From: an uncultured Flavobacteriales bacterium
GTDB lineage: Bacteria > Bacteroidota > Bacteroidia > Flavobacteriales_D > Sanyastnellaceae
Assembly (NCBI GenBank): GCA_938085425.1
Contig: CALKGQ010000011.1
Location: 186,001 to 250,000 of the forward strand
DNA: 64,000 nucleotides
Direction of reading: 5' to 3'
Part shown: piece after piece, positions 40,081 to 56,600 of the stretch
Layout of the letters: each line of letters begins with the position of its first letter
Position numbering within the stretch: position 1 is the first letter of the stretch
Notes under the pieces: model-generated
Databases searched by the model: none
What the model was told of the DNA's origin: nothing
The model's input: the letters and a program-made list of their open reading frames with translations, nothing else
Position numbers and translations under genes: made by a program

Positions 40081-43000
40081 ATGCGTTATTCCATTTGGAT
40101 GCTTTCCGTGCTCTTGTTTGCGGCGGCATCAGGCCTGCAGGCCCAGTGTGACAACTTGTTTTTCTCTGAAGCTGCAGAAGGCAGTTCCAACAACAAGTAC
40201 CTCGAGATTTACAACCCGACTTCCGCGGCCATTGACCTCAGTGGTTACGCCTACCCTAGCGTAAGCAACGCTCCGGACAACGGGCCAGGCAACTACGACT
40301 TCTGGAACAACTTCGCAGAAGGCGCAACCATTGAGGCGGGTGGAGTTTACATCATCGCCCATCCTTCTTCGGATGCCAGCATCTTGGCTGTGGCGAACGA
40401 GACTTTCACTTTCCTGTCCAACGGAGACGATGGGTTCATGATTGTGCAAGGTGACGAAGCTTCCTACGTGCAAATTGACGCAGTGGGCGATTGGAACGGC
40501 GATCCCGGTTCCGGTTGGGAAGTGGCTGGCGTTGCGGATGGCACCAAGGACCACACCATTGTGCGGAAGTCCTCTGTGCAAAGTGGAAACGCAGGCGATT
40601 GGATCACCAGTGCAGGAACGAATGTGGACGACAGCGAGTGGATTGTCTTGGACCAAAACGACTGGACCAACTTGGGCATTCACACTTTCGATGGCTGTGG
40701 GGCTGCGGTGGAAGGATGCACCAACCCCAACGCGACCAACTACAACATGGACGCAACACAAGACGATGGGTCTTGCCTTTTCGACAACGCTTGCAATGTG
40801 GACGGTGTCGTTGTGGAAGCATCGAGCTTTCAGTATGTGCCTGCCGACTTGAGCATTGAAGCTGGGACCACTGTGGTGTGGTCCAACCTCGGCGGAACCC
40901 ACGACGTGAATGGAGACATCGACTCTCAAACGTCCATGTCCTTTGGCAACCCTGAGTCGTTCTACATCGCTCCTGTCTCAGGTGCTGCAGGTGGAGTTTG
41001 CATTGGATCTTTCACGTTCAACACCCCTGGGGTGTATGCGTACGACTGCTCCATTGGCTCTCACGCAGCTTTGGGCATGGTGGCCACCATCACGGTGGGC
41101 ACAGGAGGTTGCACCAGTGCCGCCGCCCCCAACTACAACCCGTCCGCAGATTTTGACGATGGCTCTTGCATTGAGGTGAGCACCACTTCCATTGCAGACA
41201 TCCAATTGGGCCAGGAGACGGGTGTCTTCACAGATAGCGTGGTCGTCACCTCTGGTGTGGTCACAGGTGTGTTTGGCAGCAATGTCAGCATCCAAGACGG
41301 CCAAGGCGCTTACAGCGGAATGTGGCTCAACGGTCCTGATGTTCCGGTGGCCGTGGGGGACCAGATCGAGGTGACAGGAGCTGTTGCAGAGTTCTTCGAC
41401 AAAACCCAAATCTCAAACCCAGCGGTGGTGATTTCAAGCCAAGGCAACAGCTTGCCAGTGGCAGAGGTGTTGGCCACGGCCGACCTTGCTGCGGAAGCGT
41501 GGGAAGGTGTCTTGGTGCAGACCACGGGTGTGGTGACCTCGACTTCCCTCGGATTTGGCGAGTGGTCGTTGTCAGACGGTTCTGGCGACGCCGTTGCCGA
41601 CGATGCAGCCTACGATGCGATTGGCGGTGAACTGGCGGCAGTGGGCAATGAATTGCAATTGTCTGGGGTGCTTGACTTCTCCTTTGGAGCCTTCAAGGTT
41701 CAGCCTCGTGATGTGACCGATGTGTTGCTCTTCGGATGCAGCACTGAAGGCGCGGCCAACTTCAATCCCTTGGCCACGATCGACGACGGAAGTTGTGTGT
41801 TTGAGGGAGGCGAGTGTGGTCTGTTCTTCTCAGAAATGGCAGAAGGAAGCTCCAACAACAAGTACATCGAGTTGTACAACCCGACCCAGAGCACCATCTT
41901 CCTCAGTGAATACACCCTTGGCAACTGCAGCAATGGATGTGATGTCACAGGTGAATTTGACTTTTTGACGTTCAACTTCCCTTCAGGTGCTGTGGTGGAG
42001 GCAGGTTCGACCTACATCATTGCACATCCCACAGCGGATTCCTTGATTTTGGCTTCGGCAGACATGACCTACACCTTCTTGAGCAATGGCGATGATGCCT
42101 ACGGCCTTTTGGACATCACTGGCGACGCACCTGTTTTGGTGGATGTCTTTGGTTCCTTGGGTGCTGATCCAGGCTCTGGTTTTGCGGTGGCTGGAGTGTT
42201 GAACGCCACCCAAGATGGTACCATCGTTCGCAAGTCTGGCGTCAGCCAAGGCAACGGAGGAGATTGGGCCACGAGTGCGGGCAGCAATGAGATTGATTCC
42301 GAGTGGATCATCAACCCTTCCAACGATTGGACCAACTTGGGCATTCACACGTTCACGGGCGCATGCGCCACCGACAACGGCGGTTGCACCGACTCAGGTG
42401 CAGTCAACTACGACCCCAACGCCACAGAAGATGATGGTTCTTGCATCTTCGTTCCCACCCTGTCCATCCAGGACATCCACGCAGGAGCCTTCAGCGGCTC
42501 GGTGGTGACCTCTGGTTTGGTCACAGGTGTCTACGGTCCCAGTGGTTCCTTGTCTGGTCAGCCCTCCTACTCCATCCAAGATGGCAGTGGGGCATTCTCC
42601 GGCATTTGGGTCATTGGAGACGGTGTGGCTGTGGGAGACTTGGTTTCTGTCGCCGGTACCGTGAATGAGGTGTTTGGCTTGCGTCAAATCTTGTCGGCAG
42701 TTCCGACGATTCAGTCTTCGGGCAATGCCCTTCCAGCTGCAGAGGCATTGACGACTTCTGGCATCAACGACGAGCAATGGGAGAGTGTTTTGGTCACCAT
42801 GACCGGATCCGTCACGGACATCAACGCAACCTTCGGGGAGTGGCTCTTGGATGATGGTTCTGGAAACGGCATGGCTGCGAGCCTCGGCTATGAGGCCGTA
42901 GATGACAGCATCGAGGTCGACGGCATGAACATGGCTGTGGTGGAGCTTGGCGCAAACTATCGCGTGAGCGGAGCCAACTTCTTCGCCTTTGGCAATTGGA

Positions 43001-44082
43001 AGCTGTGTCCCAATGCGTCCACAGATGTTGTGCGCATCGGTTGCACCGATCCATCTTTTGCCAATTACGATGCCTTGGCGTCGGAAGACGACGGGTCATG
43101 CTCCAGCGTGGAAGGTTGCACTGACGAAGGTGCGGACAACTACGATCCCACAGCGACCATCGACGATGGCACGTGTGTGATTGTCGGATGCACTGACGTG
43201 ACGGCATTGAACTACAACGAAAACACCACACAGGAAGACAACAGCACTTGCTACTTCACCCTTCCTTCCGTCATCATCAACGAAGTGCACTACAACCCAT
43301 GCACGGCTCAGGGCGATGATTTTGATTTCGAGTTTGTGGAGCTTTTGAACATCGACGATGTGGCTGCTGATCTCTCCGGATACCAGTTCTACAACGAATC
43401 TGGAGGCTTGTTGCAATTGTCGCTCGTGTTCCCTGAGGGCACGACCTTGGCGGCGGGTGAATTCATGGTGCTTGCTGTCTCTGAGGCGGGAGCGTCCACT
43501 TATGATGGCAATGGTTACCAGGTGTTCCAAATGACTGCGGGCAACTTCAGCAACAGTGGCGAGGCATTGAGCCTGCAAGATGCCTTTGGCAATGTTGTCA
43601 ACGCCATCGACTACAACGATGCAGCACCGTGGCCTTTTGAGGCGATGGGCATTTTGGGCAACAATTTCATTGAAACACCTGATGGTGGTTGTGCTTCTTT
43701 GGAATACACTCCTGAAATCCTTGCCCTGTACTTGGACACCCCAACAGGGAATGGCAATGACCTCGGCGGCAATTGGCAAGCCTCTTGGGTGGACAATGGC
43801 ACTCCTGGAGCGGCCAACTCTTCTGCCTTTGGCTGCAACAATCCACAGGCTTGCAACTTCAATGCCAATGCGATCCTTGGTGATGAGACCCAGTGCACCT
43901 TTGATTGCACGGGTTGCACCTATGCTGGTGCGGACAACTTCACGGCAGGTGCTACAGTTGACGACGGTTCATGTGAATTCTCGTTGACCAATCCATGTCC
44001 TACGGACTTGAATGGCGACGGTTCCACGACCACAGCTGACTTGTTGGTGTTCTTGGTGGACTTTGGCAACACTTGCCTCTGA
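40081..44082 (+). CDS. large secreted modular protein with lamin-tail, cupredoxin and OB-like domains
   Basis: A 1333-residue exported protein, signal peptide cleaved at LQA|QCD. Domain order by eye: lamin-tail domain 1 (about 20-210), a type 1 copper domain (about 236-345), OB-like domain 1 (about 365-560), lamin-tail domain 2 (about 580-760), OB-like domain 2 (about 795-990), lamin-tail domain 3 (about 1060-1250) and a C-terminal dockerin/EF-hand-like motif (PTDLNGDGSTTTADLLVF). Copper ligands are His274, Cys323, His328 and Met333. Nine Cys-bounded repeats separate the domains. It is followed by a strong terminator. Secreted enzyme, adhesin or matrix protein cannot be separated here; no catalytic site is evident. 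No clear type IX CTD is visible. Confidence 0.87.
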   Translation: MRYSIWMLSVLLFAAASGLQAQCDNLFFSEAAEGSSNNKYLEIYNPTSAAIDLSGYAYPSVSNAPDNGPGNYDFWNNFAEGATIEAGGVYIIAHPSSDASILAVANETFTFLSNGDDGFMIVQGDEASYVQIDAVGDWNGDPGSGWEVAGVADGTKDHTIVRKSSVQSGNAGDWITSAGTNVDDSEWIVLDQNDWTNLGIHTFDGCGAAVEGCTNPNATNYNMDATQDDGSCLFDNACNVDGVVVEASSFQYVPADLSIEAGTTVVWSNLGGTHDVNGDIDSQTSMSFGNPESFYIAPVSGAAGGVCIGSFTFNTPGVYAYDCSIGSHAALGMVATITVGTGGCTSAAAPNYNPSADFDDGSCIEVSTTSIADIQLGQETGVFTDSVVVTSGVVTGVFGSNVSIQDGQGAYSGMWLNGPDVPVAVGDQIEVTGAVAEFFDKTQISNPAVVISSQGNSLPVAEVLATADLAAEAWEGVLVQTTGVVTSTSLGFGEWSLSDGSGDAVADDAAYDAIGGELAAVGNELQLSGVLDFSFGAFKVQPRDVTDVLLFGCSTEGAANFNPLATIDDGSCVFEGGECGLFFSEMAEGSSNNKYIELYNPTQSTIFLSEYTLGNCSNGCDVTGEFDFLTFNFPSGAVVEAGSTYIIAHPTADSLILASADMTYTFLSNGDDAYGLLDITGDAPVLVDVFGSLGADPGSGFAVAGVLNATQDGTIVRKSGVSQGNGGDWATSAGSNEIDSEWIINPSNDWTNLGIHTFTGACATDNGGCTDSGAVNYDPNATEDDGSCIFVPTLSIQDIHAGAFSGSVVTSGLVTGVYGPSGSLSGQPSYSIQDGSGAFSGIWVIGDGVAVGDLVSVAGTVNEVFGLRQILSAVPTIQSSGNALPAAEALTTSGINDEQWESVLVTMTGSVTDINATFGEWLLDDGSGNGMAASLGYEAVDDSIEVDGMNMAVVELGANYRVSGANFFAFGNWKLCPNASTDVVRIGCTDPSFANYDALASEDDGSCSSVEGCTDEGADNYDPTATIDDGTCVIVGCTDVTALNYNENTTQEDNSTCYFTLPSVIINEVHYNPCTAQGDDFDFEFVELLNIDDVAADLSGYQFYNESGGLLQLSLVFPEGTTLAAGEFMVLAVSEAGASTYDGNGYQVFQMTAGNFSNSGEALSLQDAFGNVVNAIDYNDAAPWPFEAMGILGNNFIETPDGGCASLEYTPEILALYLDTPTGNGNDLGGNWQASWVDNGTPGAANSSAFGCNNPQACNFNANAILGDETQCTFDCTGCTYAGADNFTAGATVDDGSCEFSLTNPCPTDLNGDGSTTTADLLVFLVDFGNTCL
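40714..43974 (+). repeat. nine copies of a Cys-bounded DDGSC repeat
   Basis: A 21-22-residue unit, roughly G-C-T-x3-A-x-N-Y-x2-x-A-T-x-D-D-G-S-C, occurs nine times inside the modular secreted protein. Positions are 40714-40776, 41107-41169, 41734-41796, 42382-42444, 43039-43101, 43114-43176, 43186-43251, 43831-43896 and 43912-43974. Each begins with Gly-Cys and ends with Cys, so one disulfide per unit is likely. The acidic DD/ED end is reminiscent of Ca2+-binding thrombospondin type 3-like sequence. Units 7 and 8 are one residue longer and more diverged. Confidence 0.9.
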
Positions 44083-45886: not shown

Positions 45887-45938
45887 CGCCTCTCATTGCT
45901 GTCGTCTCTTGGGACCACGCAGCCAAAATGACATCGAA

Positions 45939-46979
45939 ATGGTTGAGTTGTATACGCTGGTGGGATTTTGTTTGGCAGGCTTTTCTGTCATTGCCAATGA
46001 CAGTGTCCAAACACTGGGCACCTGGATTGCTTCCAATCGTGACAATTTCAAATGGACCACCTTGTGGGCTGCGGCTTCCACAGTGTTGGTGGCCACCCTC
46101 GTGTATGGGTGGGTTTCCTCTGGAAATGGGGACATATCCTTCGGACGATTGGCCAAGATTCCTTACGCTGAGCCCCAGTGGTACCATGCTTTGGCACCCC
46201 TGGCACTCGTGTTGTTGACCCGCAAGGGCATCCCAGTGTCCACCTCTTTTTTGGTGCTCTCAGCCTTTGCCAGCACCTTCGTGCTGGAGAAGATGCTCAT
46301 GAAGAGCATCATGGGCTACGGCTTGGCAGCTGTCGTGGCGTACGTTCTGTGGTTGGGGATTTCCCGTTTGGTCAATGAAAAAGACGACGTCAACGAGGAG
46401 TCCAAAAAGTTCTGGCGTGTGTTCCAGTGGTGCTCCACGGGGTTTTTGTGGTTCATGTGGCTGTCTCATGACGTGGCCAACATTGCGGTGTTTTTGCCCC
46501 GTGAATTGTCGCTTTTGCAGCTGATCATTGTGATTGCTTTTTTCGTCACAGGGTTGGGGTACATCTTCTACCGCCGCGGAGGCAAGATCCAAGACATTGT
46601 CCTGGACAAGCAAAGCACGAAGTATGTGCGGTCTGCCACGCTGATTGACTTGGTGTATGCCTTTTTGCTTCTCTACTTCAAGCAGATGAACAACATCCCC
46701 ATGTCGACGACTTGGGTGTTTGTGGGATTGCTTTGTGGACGTGAATTGGCCTTGAATACTGGCTTGACCAAAAAGGGAAATCTGAAAACGATTTTCCCCA
46801 TTGTGGCCAAGGACTTCTTGAAATTGATTGCCGGCTTGCTTGTCAGCGTGTCCATCGTCTTGGCCATTCACATGGGGCAAGATTCGAATGCAGAGGAGGA
46901 TACTGCCCCTGAGTCCATAGAAGTGGTGTCAAGTCCAGCAGGAGGGGCGGATGCACAATTGCCGGAGACAGAGGACTGA
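45939..46979 (+). CDS. PiT-type (inorganic phosphate transporter-like) membrane protein
   Basis: A 346-residue protein with about nine hydrophobic segments. Motifs resemble those of PiT permeases: IANDSVQTLGT near the N-terminus (compare GANDVANAFGT), HDVANIAVFLPR in the middle, and NNIPMSTTWVFVGLLCGRE near the C-terminus (compare STTH). A conserved charged loop (LVNEKDDVNEESKKFWR) lies between. Sequence is divergent, so the transported ion is not certain. The start is ATG 45939 (MVELYTLVGFC). It ends 12 bases from tyrS, which faces it. Confidence 0.74.
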   Translation: MVELYTLVGFCLAGFSVIANDSVQTLGTWIASNRDNFKWTTLWAAASTVLVATLVYGWVSSGNGDISFGRLAKIPYAEPQWYHALAPLALVLLTRKGIPVSTSFLVLSAFASTFVLEKMLMKSIMGYGLAAVVAYVLWLGISRLVNEKDDVNEESKKFWRVFQWCSTGFLWFMWLSHDVANIAVFLPRELSLLQLIIVIAFFVTGLGYIFYRRGGKIQDIVLDKQSTKYVRSATLIDLVYAFLLLYFKQMNNIPMSTTWVFVGLLCGRELALNTGLTKKGNLKTIFPIVAKDFLKLIAGLLVSVSIVLAIHMGQDSNAEEDTAPESIEVVSSPAGGADAQLPETED

Positions 46980-52555: not shown

Positions 52556-52685
52556 AAGAACCCGCCCAAGCTCCCAAAAAGGGAAGCCATTCTGAGGCCT
52601 CACGGGGACTGGGCAATATGCCCCACCTTTGTGCGTAGGTATGTCAATGGCTGTCTTCAATTTCCCTTGGAATGCTTCCACGAAA

Positions 52686-55600
52686 ATGCGCGTGATGTGC
52701 TCAGTCTCTAACGCGCCCTCCGGAAGGTTGTTCACATCACAACGTGTGCGGCGCCGGTCATGGTATGGCAGCGCCCTCTTTTTCTTGTGCTTTATGCTGT
52801 GTTTGGGTTGGAGTCCCGTCAACTGTTGGGGCCAGGAAGATGTCGTGGAACTGCATGTGAATTGGGGGGAGTCAGACTGGTCATCCTTGCTCGACCAACC
52901 GTCCAAAACCCCATTGTGGCGTTTGGTTTCTCCGCTTGATTCCCTTTGGAACGGGGTGGAGGTCCTCGACGAAAGGTTGACATGGGAGCCATGCGCTGGC
53001 GAATGCCTTGAACATTTGAATTCTCAAGTCCGAAAGGCGATGGCATCACCATGGCTTTGGAGCGTTCAACAGGCAAATGGCCACGCCCGCTTGGTGGGCG
53101 AAGGGGGGGCGTTGAGGAAGTCCGATGCGGGATGGGAACGTTTGGTCGCTCTGGATGCCACATTGGGGGCTTCCCCGGCACCATCGTCACGCGTGGTCAG
53201 GGATTGGCCCACTTCAAGTGCAAGATCATCTGGAACTTGGGTGGCGTTTGCGACCACAGAAGAGGGGGTGCACTGCATGGGGTACGACCAGCTTTTGGAA
53301 GTCGGATTGCAGCCTGAGGATTTGACCCCCAGCTCGCTTCGTTTGTTTGGACAGGGTGGGGGGGTGTTGCCCTTTGAAAACGATGCAGACCGGCCATTGG
53401 ACATGCCGCAACAGCGGGTGGTTTTCCGCGGATTGGACGACGGAAGTTTTGATCCCGGGGACGAAGTGTGCTGGTACGCCCGCGCCCACGAGCGGTGGGA
53501 GTGGGAGGCATCCGACGGGTGGTCCCACCAGGCCCCTTTTTGGGGAGACACCGCCAAGTGGTACCTCCGCATTGATGCGGATGACACCATTCCACTGGTA
53601 TCCATCACGGCGGCGGCGCCCTATGACGGCGCGATAGACGACACGCGCATTGCCCATTTGGCCTACGGGGTCGAGGAACGGCACGACGAGAACTTGATCC
53701 GATCGGGCCGGAATTGGTTTGGCACAAGGCTCTCCTCTTTGGGGGCCAACACCAAGTCCTGGAACATCAGCATCCCGGGCGCCATTGCCGGCCAAGAGGC
53801 CACCATTGAGTTTGCGGCCGCAATGCGCACCACGGGGTCTGGATCTGGATCGGAGTTGGTGTACGCTTGGGAAGGTGAGACCCTGTCCCTGACGGACAAC
53901 TTGCTTTCACCCTCCTCTCTTGCGTTTGCAGGCTACCGAAGTGGAGCCATGACTGCGCAATTGACGCAACCTGGTTTGCAGGTCCTGGCCACCCTCAACC
54001 CTGGCACCGACGACAGCAATGCGTGGATGGATTACCTGGCCTACCAAGTCCCTCAATCGCTGGTCTTTTCAGGAGGCCAAATGGCGATCAATGGCCTGCC
54101 AGTGGATGGCGACGGGAACAGCGTGGAAGGCGCCCAATACTTGCTTGGCGGCAGCCCGCCTCCCGACGCGGTTTGGGATGTGACCGACCCCCTCGATGTT
54201 CATGAGTTGCCCTTGGAGGATTTGGATGGCGCCTTGTCGTGGTCATCCTCTGCATCGGAGGTTCGCCGTTTTTGGGCCTTTCGATGGAGTGCTGCCAAGC
54301 GTCCGATGCCTCTTGGACCGGTTCCCAATGTGAATTTGCATGCCTTGGGTGAAGTGGACTACGTGGTGGTGACCGTTCCTTCTTTGGCGGCGCCTGCCGA
54401 CTCTTTGGCCTCGCTGCATGCGGCGCTCGGCCGTCGTGTCGCCGTGGTGCAGCAACAAGCCGTCTTTGATGCTTTTAGTTCGGGGGTCGCCGATCCCACA
54501 GCCATCAAAATGCTGATGATGATGTTGCGGGACCGTGCTTTGGCCAGTGATGGGGCATTGGAGGCCCCCAAGTACCTCCTGCTCATGGGCGATGCCTCTT
54601 ATGACAACAGGAACCTTCAGGGCAATGGGGATCTCGTGGTGGGCCACTATTCCCAAGAATCTCTTTTGACGACCACGAGTTACATCTCTGACGATTACTT
54701 CGCATTGACGGCAGAGGGCCAAGGCGAGCGGCCCGAAGACCTCCTTCAACTCGGCGTGGGCAGAATTCCAGCGCAAGACGAAGATGCGGCGTGGGCGGTG
54801 GTGGAGAAGGTGGCCACTTACCTCGGGTTCGACGAAACCAATGCCGATGCAGCCTCTTGCTTGGACCCCAACGGTACGAGCAGCTTTGGGCCTTGGCGCA
54901 ACAGGATTCTGTTCGTGTCAGACGACCAAGACGGCAACAACCAAGACGGGCATCGCTACATGGACAACAGCGAGGAGCACAGCAAAGCCATCCAACAGCA
55001 GCATCCGGAATACGATATTTTGAAGGTGTACCCTGATGCTTACGTGCAAACGAACACCCCTGGAGGAGAGCGTTATGCCGATGCCTCGGAGGAAATTGGC
55101 CGCCGCGTGGATGAAGGGGCGTTGATTGTGAACTACATCGGGCACGGTGGAGAGCGTGGCTGGGCACACGAGCGCATCTTGAACATGGAGACCATTCAAT
55201 CATGGACCAACCTGCGTCGCTTGCCCATCTTCATGACGGCGACATGCGAGTTATTTCGCTACGACGACCCAGAAATCTACTCGGCTGGCGAGGCCATTTT
55301 GTTCAACCCCAAGGGCGGGGCTGCCGCCCTTCTGACCACCACCCGAACGGTTTACAGTGCGGGGAATCAGCAAGTCAACCGTGCCTTTTTTGAGACGGCA
55401 CTGGACAGTGACCAAGGGCAGCGATGCCTTGGCGACATTTACCGCGACACGAAAAATTCAGAGGCCATCCTTGCCCACACGAACAGCCGAAATTTCAGCT
55501 TGATGGGGGATCCAGGGTTGGAGGTTGCTTATCCCAAACATCGGGTGTTTCTCACCGACATCCCAGACACTCTGAAGTCATTGGATTTGGTCACGATCCG

Positions 55601-56600
55601 TGGATATGTAGGGACTGAGTCAGGGGACACATTGACGGGGTTTGATGGAGCTCTGGTGCCGACTGTGTTCGACAAACGAGCGACGGTCACCACGTTGGAC
55701 AACGACGCTTCTGAAGGACCTTTTGTCTACGAGGTGTTCCAGAACATCCTGCACAAGGGGCTTGCCTCCGTGGAAGCGGGGGTGTTTGAATTCAGGTTCA
55801 TTGTGCCAAGGGACATCGATTACACCTTTGGAACGGGGCGCATCAGTTGTTACGCACTCGGAGTCGGCACCGATGCGCATGGGCGTTCCGAGGATTTCGT
55901 CATTGGTGGGACCTCTGAAAACCCGTTGATGGACGACGACGGTCCTGTGGTGGAGCTGTTCATCAATGACACGCTCTTCAAGGATGGAGACCTCGTGCAT
56001 GAAGATCCATGGTTGTTCGCCCGAATTTTTGACGAGAGCGGCATCAACACGTCAGGTGTGGGCATCGGGCATGATGCCAAGGCGATCTTGGATGGGAATG
56101 CAAGTGCGCCTTACGTGCTCAATGAATACTTCGTGTCGGATTTGGACACCTACCAGCGTGGCTCCATCCGCTTCCCTTTTCAAAACTTGGAAGAAGGGAC
56201 CCACCAGTTGTCCTTCAAGGTTTGGGATGTGGCCAACAACAGTTCAAGTGCCGAAACCCATTTCGTGGTGGCTTCTTCCCTTGAGGTGGCTTTGCTCGAA
56301 GTGCTGGCCTATCCCAACCCTGCGGTGGAGCAAGTGACGTTCCGCATGGCGGGCAACCAAGCGTGTCGGCCAGCCAACGTGCGACTTGACATTTTTGACA
56401 TTCGTGGAGGAAGGGTGCACACAGAGACGTTTGAAGGGGAGGTGCTGGGCTTTCGAGACGACGTCATGACTTGGGATTTGAAACCTTCTTCGGGACAAAG
56501 CGTACCCCCTGGTGTGTATGTGTTCCGTGTGACATGGGAGAATGAAATTGGCCAATCTGCACAATACGCAGACAAATTGGTCGTTCTTCGACCCCAATGA
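52686..56600 (+). CDS. porU: type IX secretion sortase PorU
   Basis: A 1304-residue exported C25 (gingipain-type) peptidase that removes the CTD from type IX cargo and attaches it to the surface. Catalytic candidates are His820 in NYIGHGGERGW and Cys854 in FMTATCELF. The long N-terminal region is typical of PorU, and the C-terminus (EVLAYPNPAVEQVTF, PPGVYVFRVTW) resembles a type IX sorting domain, which PorU itself carries. Signal peptide cleavage is at CWG|QED. The start is uncertain: ATG 52686, ATG 52695 or GTG 52746, the last giving the shortest signal peptide. Divergent from porP/sprF. Confidence 0.94.
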   Translation: MRVMCSVSNAPSGRLFTSQRVRRRSWYGSALFFLCFMLCLGWSPVNCWGQEDVVELHVNWGESDWSSLLDQPSKTPLWRLVSPLDSLWNGVEVLDERLTWEPCAGECLEHLNSQVRKAMASPWLWSVQQANGHARLVGEGGALRKSDAGWERLVALDATLGASPAPSSRVVRDWPTSSARSSGTWVAFATTEEGVHCMGYDQLLEVGLQPEDLTPSSLRLFGQGGGVLPFENDADRPLDMPQQRVVFRGLDDGSFDPGDEVCWYARAHERWEWEASDGWSHQAPFWGDTAKWYLRIDADDTIPLVSITAAAPYDGAIDDTRIAHLAYGVEERHDENLIRSGRNWFGTRLSSLGANTKSWNISIPGAIAGQEATIEFAAAMRTTGSGSGSELVYAWEGETLSLTDNLLSPSSLAFAGYRSGAMTAQLTQPGLQVLATLNPGTDDSNAWMDYLAYQVPQSLVFSGGQMAINGLPVDGDGNSVEGAQYLLGGSPPPDAVWDVTDPLDVHELPLEDLDGALSWSSSASEVRRFWAFRWSAAKRPMPLGPVPNVNLHALGEVDYVVVTVPSLAAPADSLASLHAALGRRVAVVQQQAVFDAFSSGVADPTAIKMLMMMLRDRALASDGALEAPKYLLLMGDASYDNRNLQGNGDLVVGHYSQESLLTTTSYISDDYFALTAEGQGERPEDLLQLGVGRIPAQDEDAAWAVVEKVATYLGFDETNADAASCLDPNGTSSFGPWRNRILFVSDDQDGNNQDGHRYMDNSEEHSKAIQQQHPEYDILKVYPDAYVQTNTPGGERYADASEEIGRRVDEGALIVNYIGHGGERGWAHERILNMETIQSWTNLRRLPIFMTATCELFRYDDPEIYSAGEAILFNPKGGAAALLTTTRTVYSAGNQQVNRAFFETALDSDQGQRCLGDIYRDTKNSEAILAHTNSRNFSLMGDPGLEVAYPKHRVFLTDIPDTLKSLDLVTIRGYVGTESGDTLTGFDGALVPTVFDKRATVTTLDNDASEGPFVYEVFQNILHKGLASVEAGVFEFRFIVPRDIDYTFGTGRISCYALGVGTDAHGRSEDFVIGGTSENPLMDDDGPVVELFINDTLFKDGDLVHEDPWLFARIFDESGINTSGVGIGHDAKAILDGNASAPYVLNEYFVSDLDTYQRGSIRFPFQNLEEGTHQLSFKVWDVANNSSSAETHFVVASSLEVALLEVLAYPNPAVEQVTFRMAGNQACRPANVRLDIFDIRGGRVHTETFEGEVLGFRDDVMTWDLKPSSGQSVPPGVYVFRVTWENEIGQSAQYADKLVVLRPQ

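Follow-up and report, generated by a model that had tools for sequence, protein, structure and literature searches.

Auracyanin and rusticyanin are small electron carriers, and not modules of giant chains. Lamin-tail and OB-type domains are known together from the ExeM/NucH proteins, which are secreted chains with a signal peptide (PMC6085458); degradation of extracellular DNA by ExeM works without the lamin-tail domain, and its nuclease activity requires the OB-type region (PMC6085458). Here we describe a gene at positions 40081–44082 (+ strand) of a 64,000-nucleotide stretch of contig CALKGQ010000011.1 (positions 186,001–250,000, hereafter the window) from an uncultured Flavobacteriales bacterium, whose 1333-amino acid (aa) product carries lamin-tail domains, OB folds and a cupredoxin domain in a single chain. 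Every one of these modules is already known, and we found no description of this combination; it is the architecture that is unusual. As judged by sequence comparison, the surface scaffold is the older part and the copper domain a clade-specific module on it, a conclusion drawn from giant proteins that sister genera encode at the corresponding locus and from a tree in which presence of the domain changes once.

The frame has an ATG start and a hydrophobic N-terminal signal peptide, and it is confirmed as a genuine gene with the domain reading correct. A Pfam scan of the protein identifies three PF00932 lamin-tail (LTD) domains (E 4.8e-39 at the protein level) and one PF00127 domain, all over the curated cut-offs, which bears out the three lamin-tail domains proposed in the first-pass annotation, made from the sequence alone. 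The 1333-residue secreted chain that it described is likewise found as an open reading frame (ORF) with a signal peptide, from which export is predicted, and the chain is very acidic (14 Lys + Arg vs 176 Asp + Glu). Its two OB-like domains were of the right type, and each proves to be a tandem pair (residues 366–550 and 790–986), giving four folds in total. The overview of the architecture was right as to the domains and missed nine two-cysteine repeats and a tag at the C-terminus, where the chain ends in CPTDLNGDGSTTTADLLVFLVDFGNTCL. The features of the gene are as follows.

40081..44082 (+), whole gene for a 1333-aa modular secreted protein (ORF; same architecture in orthologues)
40081..40146 (+), signal peptide, residues 1–22, MRYSIWMLSVLLFAAASGLQAQ (predicted from sequence)
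40147..40698 (+), lamin-tail domain 1, residues 23–206 (PF00932)
40714..40776 (+), two-cysteine repeat 1, residues 212–232 (sequence repeat)
40786..41106 (+), cupredoxin domain, residues 236–342, with putative disulphide Cys238–Cys307 (PF00127, PDB profile, model with Z 13.4, ligands in 51/51, cysteine covariation)
40900..40902 (+), codon of His274, predicted copper ligand (orthologue alignment)
41047..41049 (+), codon of Cys323, predicted copper ligand (orthologue alignment)
41062..41064 (+), codon of His328, predicted copper ligand (orthologue alignment)
41077..41079 (+), codon of Met333, predicted axial copper ligand (orthologue alignment)
41107..41169 (+), two-cysteine repeat 2, residues 343–363 (sequence repeat)
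41176..41730 (+), tandem OB folds 1 and 2, residues 366–550 (model; OB-fold chains 6pqh_D and 4joi_C; ExeM/NucH profile)
41734..41796 (+), two-cysteine repeat 3, residues 552–572 (sequence repeat)
41809..42366 (+), lamin-tail domain 2, residues 577–762 (PF00932)
42382..42444 (+), two-cysteine repeat 4, residues 768–788 (sequence repeat)
42448..43038 (+), tandem OB folds 3 and 4, residues 790–986, fold 4 with low model confidence (model, ExeM/NucH profile)
43039..43251 (+), two-cysteine repeats 5–7, residues 987–1057 (987–1007, 1012–1032 and 1036–1057; sequence repeat)
43258..43830 (+), lamin-tail domain 3, residues 1060–1250 (PF00932, best stretch 1062–1179; lamin A/C 3gef)
43831..43974 (+), two-cysteine repeats 8–9, residues 1251–1298 (1251–1272 and 1278–1298; sequence repeat)
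43990..44079 (+), C-terminal dockerin-like tag, single and EF-hand-like, with flanking cysteines, residues 1304–1333 (tag alignment)

The PF00127 (Copper-bind) match covers residues 244–339 and, at 32.6 bits, clears the cut-off of 21.2. Residues 205–560 were modelled with AlphaFold from a 36-sequence alignment; the model has a mean predicted local distance difference test score (pLDDT) of 88, with the cupredoxin part at ~95, and the cupredoxin fold proposed at first pass is thus supported: the domain superimposes on plastocyanin 1pcs (Z 13.4, root mean square deviation 1.6 Å over 88 residues) and has auracyanin 1qhq as its top Foldseek match at ~22% identity. A profile built from 56 related cupredoxin domains recovers plastocyanins, amicyanins, pseudoazurins and nitrite reductases from the PDB, and the ligands align in register; His274, Cys323, His328 and Met333 all align with the plastocyanin ligands, and the positions assigned to them at first pass are exact. 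The four are predicted to cluster in space on the basis of this alignment and the close superposition. The domain is not a plastocyanin proper, as it scores 25.4 bits with the TIGR02656 plastocyanin equivalog, below the cut-off of 87.85.

The Cys-x4-His-x4-Met spacing had been singled out at first pass as unusual, and this did not hold up. The corresponding ligands of rusticyanin are Cys138, His143 and Met148 (PMC517927), and the same Cys-x4-His-x4 arrangement is found in sulfocyanin (171/176/181), auracyanin (122/127/132) and cucumber basic protein (79/84/89) in the ligand table of that paper; we therefore rejected novelty of the spacing. It is present in 109 of the 113 cupredoxin domains that we collected, with the second histidine lost in three. 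These three are cupredoxin-fasciclin proteins with Asn (L135, L137) or Gln (L121) at that position, and are natural candidates for proteins whose copper site has been lost or changed. Among 56 diverse cupredoxin domains, both Cys238 and Cys307 are present in 43 and neither in 13, and never one singly; because the pair is always present or absent together, a Cys238–Cys307 disulphide is indicated.

Relatives of the cupredoxin domain are present in 81 of 114 genomes of the bacterial family and in 80 named loci, nearly all of them in Flavobacteriales or Bacteroidetes metagenome-assembled genomes (MAGs). Relatives also lie on contigs labelled Rhodopirellula, Chryseobacterium gleum and Neomarinimicrobiota (L065, L092 and L117), where at least the L065 label is probably a binning error, since that sequence is 87% identical to the cupredoxin domain of the window. 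The full architecture of cupredoxin, lamin-tail and OB domains occurs in 52 proteins from marine Flavobacteriales MAGs, a set that includes two copies of the window's own gene and some proteins that are partial at locus ends. The module order is lamin-tail domain, repeat, cupredoxin, repeat, OB pair, repeat, lamin-tail domain, repeat, OB pair, repeats, lamin-tail domain, repeats and tag, and one orthologue group has an additional OB pair following the cupredoxin.

The cupredoxin is the most strongly conserved of the longer domains. All four ligands are kept in 51 of 51 rows of the orthologue alignment, as are Cys238 and Cys307, and 36% of its columns are invariant, compared with 6–28% in the other longer domains. 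In one orthologue group the cupredoxin is 65% identical while lamin-tail domain 1 is just 25% identical. The nonsynonymous divergence (dN) of the cupredoxin is among the lowest, at 0.10–0.11 vs 0.17–0.19 for the whole chain; we give dN alone and no ratio because synonymous divergence (dS) of the window gene from its closest relatives is near saturation. The locus itself is conserved, with, in this order, a Wzz-like gene, a glycosyltransferase, RNase HII, the cupredoxin gene, a lipoprotein, a LuxE-like gene and TyrS, of which the names Wzz, lipoprotein and TyrS were assigned by reading the sequence and not by scan. We note that a PHO4-like gene, under the Pfam cut-off, lies near the cupredoxin gene at 45909–46979 of the window, and that a Na/Pi cotransporter is directly downstream in two orthologous loci (L061, 9393–11057; L085, 10102–11802).

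The same locus is found both with and without the copper domain. In five genera (g4, g5, g15, g16 and g17) the position beside RNase HII and the lipoprotein gene encodes giants built of lamin-tail domains, OB folds, repeats and the tag, without a cupredoxin; one of them (L178) was scanned with Pfam and has no copper domain. Another genus (g10) likewise has a cupredoxin-less giant, for which the RNase HII and lipoprotein neighbours are not within the stretch read. In one genome the cupredoxin-less gene is present in two adjacent copies (L181, 6631–14691; 1698 and 898 aa). A tree built on the C-terminal half that the two kinds of protein share splits those with the cupredoxin from those lacking it by one branch with 100/100 support, and presence of the domain is a single change in all bootstrap trees. 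The tree is unrooted and so accommodates gain and loss alike; gain is the simpler reading because the cupredoxin module is mobile in the same bacteria, where it is also found ahead of fasciclin repeats in chains with a type IX sorting domain, or by itself in front of two-cysteine repeats. The second cupredoxin protein of the window's genome (L004, 335–2608) is of the former kind, its cupredoxin being joined to three fasciclin domains and a type IX sorting domain. The pairing of a copper domain with adhesion-type modules is therefore not unique, as cupredoxin-fasciclin-type IX proteins are present in the genome and in relatives; among open-licence papers we found none that links fasciclin domains or type IX secretion to a cupredoxin or plastocyanin.

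Taken on their own, the OB pairs are not recognised by Pfam, which gives a single weak RraA-like match (E 0.09) that we disregarded, and NCBIfam sees these regions only through the OB part of the ExeM/NucH profile. In the model of the first pair, residues 163–252 of the model match 6pqh_D, an Asn-tRNA ligase chain (Z 12.6, 2.1 Å, 87 residues), whose aligned part we take to be the N-terminal OB domain of that enzyme, and residues 252–356 match 4joi_C, a chain of the Stn1-Ten1 complex (Z 12.5, 2.9 Å, 95 residues). We count four folds and not two because the second region is homologous to this modelled pair. A model of residues 765–1333 has a low pLDDT (63), with fold 4 not confident, and because of this it was used for lamin and OB matches only; lamin-tail domain 3 matches human lamin A/C 3gef (E 4.8e-7), in line with a lamin Ig-type fold. 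The NCBIfam ExeM and ExeM/NucH matches are partial and N-terminal, ending at profile positions 182/884 and 113/546, and score far below the cut-offs (84.6 vs 1300 bits and 51.9 vs 300 bits). An exonuclease-endonuclease-phosphatase domain is absent from the protein in the Pfam scan, and it is not an ExeM/NucH nuclease. In each orthologue checked the four OB folds carry 7–11 Lys + Arg vs 39–49 Asp + Glu, and because both chain and OB folds are so acidic, a polyanion such as DNA is an unlikely partner unless calcium bridges the two; contacts of the OB and lamin-tail domains with protein or glycan are more likely.

The nine two-cysteine repeats (GC...NY...DDGSC) are 21–22 residues long and lie between the domains; Pfam scans gave no family over cut-off for them. 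Repeats of the form GCTDPxAxNYxPxAxxDDGSC also occur in ~20 other secreted proteins of the genome, with up to 17 per chain. The C-terminal tag (consensus C..DLNGDGxVxxxDLLxxLxxFGxxC) is similarly widespread. A census of the 2.07-Mb genome, compiled from matches and retrieved stretches (including L012–L029, L142–L173 and window 43990–44079), places it 0–5 residues from the C-terminus in 45 of 57 rows, corresponding to 44 ORFs after removal of a double entry, a few of them with weak scores. In the genome it is frequently in tandem pairs, and the 1333-aa protein has one repeat. PF00404 (dockerin) has no match in the protein, and a cohesin profile has none in the genome, where a too-divergent cohesin could escape the profile; a cellulosome-like system was rejected given the lack of a cohesin, and the tag, with no PF00404 match and only one EF-type repeat, is not a cellulosome dockerin. 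The TIGR04183 type A sorting domain has 54 matches in the genome (46 over cut-off), none of them in the 40081–44082 gene. The genome also has part of SprA, a protein of the translocon, at a contig end. A second large ORF in the window (52629–56600; 1323 aa) has a weak C-terminal type IX sorting-domain match (E 0.009). The tag on ~44 proteins is possibly an undescribed sorting or anchoring signal. The more specific proposal, that it acts in parallel to the type A domain and serves to display type 1 copper, carried by a long acidic scaffold, for electron transfer outside the cell, is tentative and we regard it as unlikely.

The reading that we favour, at a probability of roughly one half, is that the protein is a vertically inherited surface scaffold with an acquired cupredoxin that displays copper and cycles electrons outside the cell. 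An ancestor most likely took a plastocyanin-type cupredoxin into a lamin-tail/OB scaffold built on disulphide-stapled linkers. The signal peptide would export the chain, the C-terminal tag would hold it at the cell surface, and the cupredoxin would display one copper ion outside the cell, cycling between Cu(I) and Cu(II) and donating electrons to, or accepting them from, an envelope or matrix partner; the lamin-tail and OB modules would be spacers that also make protein or glycan contacts. Strict retention of the copper domain since it joined the scaffold suggests an actual extracellular job for copper, and the cupredoxin probably serves in electron transfer or in binding copper at the surface. 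That the copper site of a matrix or adhesion protein should have a redox role, which the first-pass annotation thought would be unusual, is possible. Several observations pull the other way. Sister genera do without the cupredoxin in this protein, so it is dispensable for the scaffold; surface anchoring by the tag is presumed, with the canonical type IX sorting domain absent from the gene; and the neighbouring genes looked at include no visible oxidase, reductase or copper-handling gene.

The lack of an adjacent redox partner gene would also suit a cupredoxin that captures or buffers copper at the surface, for protection or acquisition in seawater, as would the intact ligand set of the orthologues and the occurrence of the domain in fusion with a variety of surface proteins, which one would expect of a generic metal-binding module. 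A single copper per 1333-residue chain would however store little, type 1 sites are adapted to electron transfer, and the neighbourhood has no visible copper transport or resistance gene, so that we consider copper capture rather unlikely. Metal-free cupredoxin-like folds exist, and the domain could be a copper-free structural or adhesive beta-sandwich module, as the loss of the second histidine in the three more distant relatives L135, L137 and L121 might suggest; this is improbable for a domain that is the best conserved of the longer ones and has its four ligands in all 51 proteins of this architecture. Least probable, in our view, is an accessory role in ExeM-type extracellular DNA binding or nuclease action, in which lamin-tail and OB domains hold DNA and nearby phosphate transporters take up the product. 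The ExeM and ExeM/NucH profiles do match these parts, the OB models resemble the single-stranded DNA binders Ten1 and Teb1, and phosphate transporter genes accompany the window gene and two orthologues, but the profile matches end early with no nuclease catalytic domain, the chain and its OB folds are strongly acidic, and the phosphate genes need not be functionally linked because the whole gene order, including TyrS and RNase HII, is conserved.

What is notable is that the copper site appears to have joined (or left) an old surface scaffold only once and has been kept without exception in its clade. The sister genera thus provide a natural experiment, in which one surface scaffold at one locus can be compared in the presence and absence of a strictly conserved copper site, and the comparison makes an extracellular role for copper in marine Flavobacteriales testable. 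The tag shared by ~44 proteins may in addition indicate an undescribed route of sorting or anchoring.

Compared with known systems, the domain shares its fold and its His/Cys/His/Met ligand set with plastocyanin and the small cupredoxins of PF00127, and differs from plastocyanin (Cys-x2-His-x4-Met) in its Cys-x4-His-x4-Met spacing, its extra Cys238–Cys307 pair and its embedding in a 1333-residue chain; auracyanin and rusticyanin share the Cys-x4-His-x4-fourth-ligand spacing. The protein departs from ExeM/NucH in having three lamin-tail domains, four OB folds, a copper domain and no nuclease domain, and a dockerin-like tag where ExeM/NucH has a GG-C-terminal membrane anchor. The sister-genus giants have the same locus, lamin-tail and OB domains, two-cysteine repeats and tag, and differ in being without the copper domain. 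The cupredoxin-fasciclin-type IX proteins share the cupredoxin subfamily (48% identity for the genome's own one), and carry fasciclin repeats and a type A sorting domain where the 1333-aa protein has lamin-tail domains, OB folds and the dockerin-like tag.

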